A stretch of 64,000 bases of DNA, taken from assembly GCF_016865445.1 (NCBI RefSeq), contig NZ_AP024412.1:186001-250000 (forward strand), written 5' to 3'. A program made the translations under genes and the position numbers. The stretch is from Mariniplasma anaerobium. GTDB taxonomy: Bacteria; Bacillota_I; Bacilli_A; Acholeplasmatales; Acholeplasmataceae. Positions 21,243-22,076 of the stretch are shown in pieces (the stretch's first letter is position 1; each line of letters opens with the position of its first letter). The notes under the pieces are model-generated. The model made no database searches and was not told the origin of the DNA. It was given only the letters and a program-made list of their open reading frames with translations.

Positions 21243-21272
21243 TTTACAAATCACTATGAAACTTGATATACT
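21243..21272 (+). promoter_or_regulatory. Candidate promoter of the guanine riboswitch RNA
   Basis: TTTACA (21243-21248), 18 bases, TATACT (21267-21272) predicts a start near 21279, about ten bases before the aptamer. A TATAAT at 21282-21287 would start inside P1 and is less likely. Confidence 0.5.
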
Positions 21273-21288
21273 ATTTGTGTATATAATT

Positions 21289-21353
21289 ATCGTATAAGTT
21301 ATCTATGATGGAGATAACGTTTCTACCGGAATGCCTTATATTCCGACTACGAT
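21289..21353 (+). ncRNA. Guanine-class purine riboswitch aptamer
   Basis: All parts of the purine aptamer are readable. P1 is ATCGTA with TACGAT. P2 is GTTATCT with AGATAAC and loop ATGATGG. The invariant core GTTTCTACC follows. P3 is GGAAT with ATTCC and loop GCCTTAT. J3/1 is GACTACG. The GG of loop 2 can pair with the CC of loop 3 as in known kissing loops. The base at the discriminating position (C of GACTA) is that of guanine, not adenine, riboswitches, and the core U kept in GTTTCTACC argues against the 2'-deoxyguanosine variant. Unusually, no purine gene follows; see findings. Confidence 0.92.
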
Positions 21354-21389
21354 TAATTAAACATTTAGGGGTTGTTTTTCTAAACGTAG
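21347..21389 (+). promoter_or_regulatory. Alternative hairpin competing with riboswitch P1
   Basis: CTACG (21347-21351), part of the P1 3' strand, can pair with CGTAG (21385-21389), enclosing a TTTAG/CTAAA stem (21364-21368 with 21380-21384). Ligand binding would block this hairpin, so it is probably the switching element. Confidence 0.55.
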
Positions 21390-21423
21390 CCTTGATATGC
21401 GTATAATTATGATACATCAAGGG

Positions 21424-21453
21424 GCGAAGTGGGTAATGTAACATCGCTTTTAT
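21424..21453 (+). terminator. Possible first terminator of the riboswitch RNA
   Basis: GCGA and TCGC with a further GT/AC pairing enclose a loop and are followed by TTTTATTT. A preceding stem, CCTTGAT with ATCAAGG (21390-21422 region), is also possible. Weak to moderate terminator. Confidence 0.4.
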
Positions 21454-21455
21454 TT

Positions 21456-21486
21456 AAAAACACCGCACTTTTGGGGTGTTTTTTTT
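21456..21486 (+). terminator. Strong terminator upstream of ppa
   Basis: AAAAACACC (21456-21464) pairs with GGTGTTTTT (21475-21483) followed by more T. It should end folD read-through and riboswitch transcripts before ppa. Confidence 0.85.
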
Positions 21487-21491
21487 ACCGA

Positions 21492-21497
21492 TATAAT
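21492..21497 (+). promoter_or_regulatory. -10 element of ppa
   Basis: TATAAT at 21492-21497 follows the terminator directly. The -35 would lie in the terminator and is poor. AAGGAG precedes the ppa ATG. Confidence 0.5.
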
Positions 21498-21536
21498 GCT
21501 AAAATAATAATGTGCTTTAAAAAGGAGATTGATTAA

Positions 21537-22076
21537 ATGAATATATGGCATGATATAAGTAAATCACGTATAACACCAGATAAGTTTATTGCGTGTATTG
21601 AAATATCTAAAGGCTCAAAGAAAAAATACGAACTTGATAAAGATACTGGTATGATTATATTAGATAGAATACTATTTACTTCAACTCATTATCCAGCTAA
21701 TTATGGGTTTATTCCTAGAACTTATGCAGGAGACAATGACCCACTTGATGTTTTAGTTTTATGTCAAGAAGATATTGAACCATTATCCATTGTTGAATGT
21801 TATCCCATTGGAGTTATGAAAATGATTGATTCTGATGAAATTGATGAAAAAATTATAGCGATCCCATTTGGTGATCCTTCTCTAACACAATATAAAGATA
21901 TTCATGAACTTCCAGCTCATTTATTAACTGAAATGGGACATTTTTTTGAAGTCTATAAATCTCTTGAAGGCAAGAAAACTTATATCCTTGATATTGAAGG
22001 TAGAGAAGCAGCAAAAAAAATCATTTTAGAAAGCATGAAAACATACGAAGAGAAATTCGGAAAGACAGGTCGATGA
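21537..22076 (+). CDS. ppa: Inorganic pyrophosphatase, family I
   Basis: A 179-residue soluble pyrophosphatase of the single-domain family I type, with HYPANYGFIPRTYAGDNDPLD near residue 45; the two aspartates of DNDPLD bind metal. It hydrolyses PPi to drive nucleotide and tRNA-charging reactions. It has its own -10 and strong ribosome binding site. yebC follows after three bases, so the two are cotranscribed. Confidence 0.95.
   Translation: MNIWHDISKSRITPDKFIACIEISKGSKKKYELDKDTGMIILDRILFTSTHYPANYGFIPRTYAGDNDPLDVLVLCQEDIEPLSIVECYPIGVMKMIDSDEIDEKIIAIPFGDPSLTQYKDIHELPAHLLTEMGHFFEVYKSLEGKKTYILDIEGREAAKKIILESMKTYEEKFGKTGR

Follow-up and report, generated by a model that had tools for sequence, protein, structure and literature searches.

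RosA of Bacillus subtilis is a sponge of the C-rich small RNAs (sRNAs) RoxS and FsrA; its promoter is under CcpA control, and no ligand aptamer is described there (PMC8464778). The RNA that we describe here resembles RosA in being stand-alone, in its length of about 200 nt and in G-rich stretches predicted to pair C-rich sRNA regions, a comparison of layout and not of sequence, and differs from it by including a purine aptamer. Other sponges are ChiZ, IspZ and FtsO (PMC7815308). In Listeria, the riboswitch-bearing non-coding RNA Rli55 sequesters the protein EutV, and SreA and SreB are SAM riboswitch fragments that pair with prfA mRNA in trans (PMC8079631). The latter share with our RNA the base pairing of a riboswitch RNA in trans, but they are by-products of a working cis switch, whereas the RNA described here has no cis gene and an sRNA as its predicted partner. 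EutX of Enterococcus, from a 2014 paper in Science, is likewise said to be an aptamer-bearing non-coding RNA that sequesters EutV. Rli55 and EutX are similar to our RNA in placing an aptamer within a trans-acting non-coding RNA that acts by sequestration. They bind EutV, however, and their ligand acts via premature termination, whereas here the partner would be an sRNA and the terminator is seemingly constitutive. In tandem guanine-PRPP riboswitches, to which PMC8632094 refers, an extra structured domain follows the guanine aptamer; the RNA examined here differs in that a search of Rfam at E<=5 gave no ykkC/PRPP match and in that its additional element, hairpin D, is predicted to pair with RNA. 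A literature search for a ligand-gated sRNA sponge found none, many subscription papers lying outside that search.

The window, that is, the whole 64,000-nt stretch of Mariniplasma anaerobium DNA analysed, contains the gene order fhs, folD, aptamer RNA, ppa, yebC. The features of this locus and of the partner RNA are as follows.

21243 to 21272, + strand: promoter of the aptamer RNA, TTTACA-N18-TG.TATACT (extended -10; -35-like TTTACA at 21243-21248, TATACT at 21267-21272, N18 between them and TG upstream of TATACT), seen in 26/26 orthologues
21278 to 21486, + strand: putative stand-alone transcript of ~209 nt, its start at 21278 placed from the -10 and the conserved 5' strand; model R1 matches 21278-21416 with 94.3 bits
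21278 to 21296, + strand: helix A, 5' strand, which takes in the P1 5' strand; 11/19 helix A pairs changed on both sides
21289 to 21353, + strand: purine (guanine-type) aptamer P1-P2-P3 (RF00167), which keeps U22, U47, U51 and C74 (xpt numbering)
21347 to 21351, + strand: CTACG, P1 3' strand and also helix B 5' strand
21359 to 21377, + strand: hairpin C, AAACA-TTTAGGGGT-TGTTT, with a conserved GGGG loop at 21368-21371 (orthologue alignment, covariation)
21385 to 21389, + strand: CGTAG, helix B 3' strand and P1 competitor
21395 to 21416, + strand: helix A, 3' strand, whose paired state excludes P1 (covariation, strand-swap test)
21420 to 21451, + strand: hairpin D, in which segment 21427-21445 (AAGTGGGTAATGTAACATC) complements seed 1 of the CCCC sRNA (stem swap, pairing tests)
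21456 to 21486, + strand: intrinsic terminator AAAAACACC..GGGGTGTTTTTTTT, U-tailed, which also lies downstream of folD; no orthologue offers its 5' arm another predicted partner
21497 to 21536, + strand: separate promoter of ppa, with -10 TGCTAAAAT at 21497-21505 and Shine-Dalgarno (SD) sequence AAAAGGAG at 21520-21527, kept in orthologues and also where the RNA is missing
21537 to 22076, + strand: ppa (inorganic pyrophosphatase; PF00719, 1.6e-59), the next gene, judged a non-target
G000:C1:507075-507178 (= L287:1501-1604), outside the window: CCCC sRNA of the same genome, at the topA-tpx locus

An earlier note on this DNA had called a guanine aptamer at 21289-21353, a TTTACA-N18-TATACT promoter just upstream, a strong terminator at 21456-21486 and a -10 belonging to ppa itself, and each of these calls holds. 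Rfam RF00167 matches 21270-21369 with 66.7 bits against a gathering threshold of 37; the J2/3 core is complete, and the pocket residues of the window copy read TTTTCTACAC at U22, U47-C53, A73 and C74, with the discriminating C74 of the guanine type. When the window copy and two orthologues were searched against Rfam at low thresholds, the aptamer alone was significant. A search of the whole genome (G000) for 6S RNA (RF00013, E<=1) gave no match, while control genomes do match. Elsewhere in the window, 55390-55486 matches the S10-Clostridia ribosomal protein leader RF03136 just above threshold (39.9 vs 35.1 bits), here in a relative of Acholeplasma.

Orthologous copies of the aptamer RNA lie between folD and ppa in 26 cases, all with the same layout: promoter, 5' strand, aptamer, AGGGG loop, CGTAG, second G-rich hairpin, terminator and ppa promoter. 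The promoter (consensus TTTAC-17/18-TGnTATA(A/C)T), the terminator and the separate ppa promoter are kept in 26/26, and the folded 5' strand begins, in the alignment of orthologues, ~6 nt past the -10, at the expected transcription start. Across the order, the matches of model R1 above 67 bits are all folD-ppa copies; among weaker ones, from about 60 bits downwards, are ordinary purine riboswitches that the model matches via the aptamer. The sequence folds more stably than its shuffles (z -3.2), and a search of the orthologues for a conserved small ORF found none. Relatives without the aptamer RNA (L092, L111, L113 and L171) retain the order folD, terminator, ppa promoter. Among the three options that the earlier note had left for the locus, our comparison favours the stand-alone, guanine-linked sRNA of ~200 nt. 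As judged from this conserved layout, the aptamer locus (about 21278-21486) most likely encodes a stand-alone RNA and not a switch for ppa. A shorter folD-ppa copy, L062 (G021:C32:37477), lacks hairpins B and C but retains a GGGGGATAAAGTA motif as well as helix A; a search of G021 for topA and for the sRNA of that locus found neither. An antiterminator made of GGGGTTGTTT and the terminator was tried as a candidate and rejected, being neither conserved nor ever predicted.

At least one purine aptamer is present in 55/88 genomes of the family. The window's genome has two, the other of which (L001) precedes an NCS2-like purine permease (identity by inspection). Other purine riboswitches in the same genomes lie upstream of NCS2-like purine permeases, purE, guaB and guaA (names by inspection), mostly at a distance of some tens to ~100 nt from it. 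They belong to the same aptamer family as the window RNA; in the latter, however, the next gene lies beyond a junction, a pairing hairpin and a further promoter. Two further loci merit mention. L058 (G009:C1:85453) is a purine aptamer whose next listed ORF, lipoprotein-like, begins 216 nt downstream, and is possibly another free-standing copy. In genus g2, a Fur-like gene (by inspection) is followed by L229-L234 (G005:C1:1135499-1135601, - strand), which represent another purine-aptamer RNA of the stand-alone kind. It has a promoter, a long-P1 aptamer and an invariant anti-SD CTCCTTCTT, and most copies also have a terminator; the genes that follow vary and seemingly have their own promoters. 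This RNA is a candidate guanine-linked anti-SD sRNA.

Folded singly, nearly all orthologues reach their minimum energy as a four-way junction. This structure keeps P2 and P3, pairs the P1 5' strand with a distant downstream sequence of the TTAAATACA type and pairs the P1 3' strand with CGTAG. Because the junction takes up both P1 strands, it and P1 are mutually exclusive. In a model-fitted alignment of 25 copies, junction covariation was 0.307, compared with 0.157 for shuffled alignments (0/500 as high); 33/47 pairs had two-sided changes, and 89.5% of pairing cells were paired. Since this alignment was fitted to the structure, we added an alignment-free strand-swap test, in which helix A reached -13.3 kcal/mol with its own strands and -10.3 kcal/mol with swapped strands (0/20000). 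L112 has lost the aptamer core and has helix A rebuilt from new bases (CCGCATC/GATGCGG), and in L104 P1 is broken and helix A repaired, which argues that selection acts on the junction in its own right and not through the aptamer. When only the nascent part up to P1 is considered, the aptamer is predicted to fold in 23/25 copies (exceptions L063 and L112). The full-length RNA disfavours P1 by 1.6-13.4 kcal/mol in aptamer-bearing copies and by 16.6 in L112, with a mean penalty in the complete RNA of 6.4 kcal/mol in free energy. For purine riboswitches, a penalty in this range is plausibly bridged by a tightly bound ligand.

The pairing of CTACG with CGTAG, which the earlier note had described as competing with P1, is thus real and part of a larger, covarying structure, and the CCTTGAT (21390-21396) and ATCAAGG (21416-21422) that it had joined in a stem are complementary. 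The further terminator that it had listed, at about 21424-21452, is instead hairpin D, predicted to pair with another RNA. Its suggestion of a tandem device with a second domain is borne out insofar as such a domain exists, an RNA-pairing hairpin whose partner we found; as far as matches in Rfam go, it is not a second ligand pocket.

Hairpin D consists of a variable but complementary stem around a conserved ATAGGGGATARGTAGCATC with a GGGG motif. Its 3' arm is misaligned by MAFFT, and the stem was judged by the strand-swap test (0/20000) rather than by pair counts. Model R2, built on D, matches in many genomes not only D but also a second locus, the opposite strand of which reads as an sRNA gene of ~100 nt that we call the CCCC sRNA. 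It comprises, in order, a TTTAC..TATAAT-like promoter, a GCATCC/GGATGC hairpin, TACTTATCCCCTAT, a GTGTAC/GTACAC hairpin, AAATCCCCTTTAAT and a terminator, and carries two CCCC seeds. Model R3 finds it in 42/160 genomes of the order, including that of the window; at the loci checked, topA precedes it and tpx-ftsY mostly follows. It had no significant Rfam match, also at low thresholds, and when compared with RoxS/RsaE (RF01820) it scored 15.1 bits against a gathering threshold of 79 (E 2.7). By its comparative signature, the CCCC sRNA is a new sRNA family of Acholeplasmataceae. Sequences exactly complementary to the g10 D motif numbered only three besides D, all of them apparently chance matches within coding sequence (the third by inspection), and exact complements of loop C showed no excess over a reversed control.

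Complementarity between D and seed 1 extends over a core of 13-19 bp in most of the 22 genomes holding both RNAs. The duplexes include G-U pairs, one mismatch in G038/G044 and, in a few genomes (the window's and G087), bulges. Predicted energies averaged -32.2 kcal/mol for own partners and -29.2 kcal/mol for swapped ones, and 0/50000 permutations were as good; relatedness between genomes is uncorrected in these permutations and in the loss counts below. The window's genome shows a double change, ATGTAAC/GTTACAT where its sisters have AAGTAAC/GTTACTT, and G035 holds the compensatory pair AAGCAGC/GCTGCTT; in G030 the flanks changed on both sides, and G034/G045 have GTAAC/GTTAC. The window's own duplex, which is bulged, is the weakest of the 22 (-23.0 kcal/mol) and its energy is unexceptional when taken alone, 76/8528 window segments pairing as well. 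Some D motifs pair as well or better with foreign sRNAs. For loop C, we observed a weak own-partner excess with seed 2 (1950/50000) and, in the permutation test with seed 1, none.

The two RNAs also tend to be lost together. At the topA locus, G024 and the L092 genome have a broken CCCC sRNA or none, L113 and L117 have none, and all four are without the aptamer RNA at folD-ppa (G024 has the permease aptamer only); in L171 the sRNA is strongly diverged and the aptamer RNA absent. In G026, G036, G039 and the L104 genome, the sRNA is absent or broken and D is diverged or without GGGG; G039 and L104 are additionally damaged in J2/3 or P1. G040 and the L104 genome have identical topA-tpx spacers, and G040 most likely carries a decayed L104-type RNA missed by model R1. 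In the L112 genome the CCCC sRNA is kept and D pairs over 16 positions (2 G-U, by inspection), and the aptamer is lost. Because L112 keeps junction, D and sRNA without the aptamer, pairing is probably the core function and the aptamer an input layer. Two features expected of a RosA-like sponge were found here: seed complementarity (22 genomes) and coevolution, as compensatory changes and correlated loss with relatedness uncorrected. Pairing between D and the CCCC sRNA is well supported by these comparisons. The CCCC sRNA commonly occurs without the aptamer RNA (g2, g3, g5, g6) and must therefore have other targets. The pattern AAGGGGAT-N2-9-ATG is enriched over a reversed control in 8 genomes, as SD sequences would be in any case, and among the inspected candidate target genes the only one repeated between species encodes a small membrane protein.

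We propose that this stand-alone RNA with a guanine-type aptamer pairs the CCCC sRNA in trans and sponges it or is degraded together with it, a reading to which we assign a probability of roughly 70%. Its 3' part, hairpin D and perhaps the GGGG loop of hairpin C, would capture the CCCC sRNA made at topA-tpx. During transcription the aptamer would fold first, with P1; without guanine, later sequence would invade P1 and form the four-way junction, displaying the hairpin C loop beside hairpin D so that both could engage the two CCCC seeds. Guanine would hold P1, block the junction and partly hide loop C, and the weakened capture would free the CCCC sRNA. This direction is suggested because the predicted accessibility of loop C falls from 0.81 in the junction ensemble to 0.46 once P1 is imposed, averaged over 24 orthologues, whereas that of D hardly changes (0.53 vs 0.50); guanine control would consequently need to act via loop C, geometry or stability. 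The direction is tentative, and we would sooner bet against it than for it. The stand-alone layout, the alternative folds, the complementarity of D to the sRNA and their coevolution are supported by sequence; expression, guanine binding and sequestration by the aptamer RNA are inferred. That this would be the first natural small-molecule-gated sRNA sponge, in which the exclusive folds of a guanine aptamer decide CCCC sRNA capture, falls in our estimate just short of an even chance.

Other explanations of the locus can be set against this proposal. In the ppa-yebC read-through switch that the earlier note had offered, guanine would set terminator read-through in cis. The aptamer indeed lies upstream of ppa in 26/26 orthologues, and by inspection GGGGTTGTTT could partly pair the terminator 5' arm in most of them. 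That match fails, however, in L050 and L104; removing the terminator costs 9.4-15.8 kcal/mol, its 5' arm has no competing partner in the predicted folds, and it stays whole in both conformers, including with P1 forced (six copies displayed). The -10 of ppa is conserved both in orthologues and where the RNA is absent, and a cis switch would leave the coevolution of D with a distant sRNA unexplained. No expression platform for the adjacent gene is thus predicted, and the read-through switch appears highly improbable. We give equally scant credence to the aptamer RNA being mainly a processed 3' UTR of the fhs-folD mRNA whose stability the aptamer tunes: we noted no clear terminator in the stretch from folD to the aptamer RNA, and RNA-less genomes have a terminator alone after folD, but a near-perfect promoter in 26/26 copies, with the folded 5' strand ~6 nt past its -10, and the co-loss with the CCCC sRNA argue against it.

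The action might also run in reverse or be mutual, the aptamer RNA being a target of the CCCC sRNA or both being destroyed by RNase III with no net sponging. The same complementarity data would fit, and the CCCC sRNA is the older or more widespread of the two, occurring in g2, g3, g5 and g6 without the aptamer RNA; as the latter has no conserved ORF to regulate, however, its being a target is meaningful only as a decoy or in co-degradation, and we consider such action unlikely. Finally, the family could be real and the window's own copy a chance or relic sponge in decay. Both its D and its seed 1 have drifted to the weakest of the 22 duplexes, and the close relative SMBSF03 (L092) has no aptamer RNA and a broken sRNA. 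The drift is compensatory (ATGTAAC/GTTACAT), however, and the window copy has its promoter, aptamer core, junction and terminator intact, which makes decay quite unlikely.

Riboswitches are nearly always read as controls of the next gene. Under the trans-acting sponge that we favour, an aptamer would be joined to a fold switch and to an RNA-pairing hairpin in one free RNA, the partner of which was named from coevolution alone. The analysis adds two RNA families, as yet undescribed, to the Acholeplasmataceae. Natural mutants are at hand in which the aptamer is lost and the pairing kept, or the sRNA lost and the pairing decayed, and make each step testable. The proposal predicts a link between guanine level and an sRNA network; if true, purine status would reset a post-transcriptional regulon in relatives of the minimal-genome Mollicutes.
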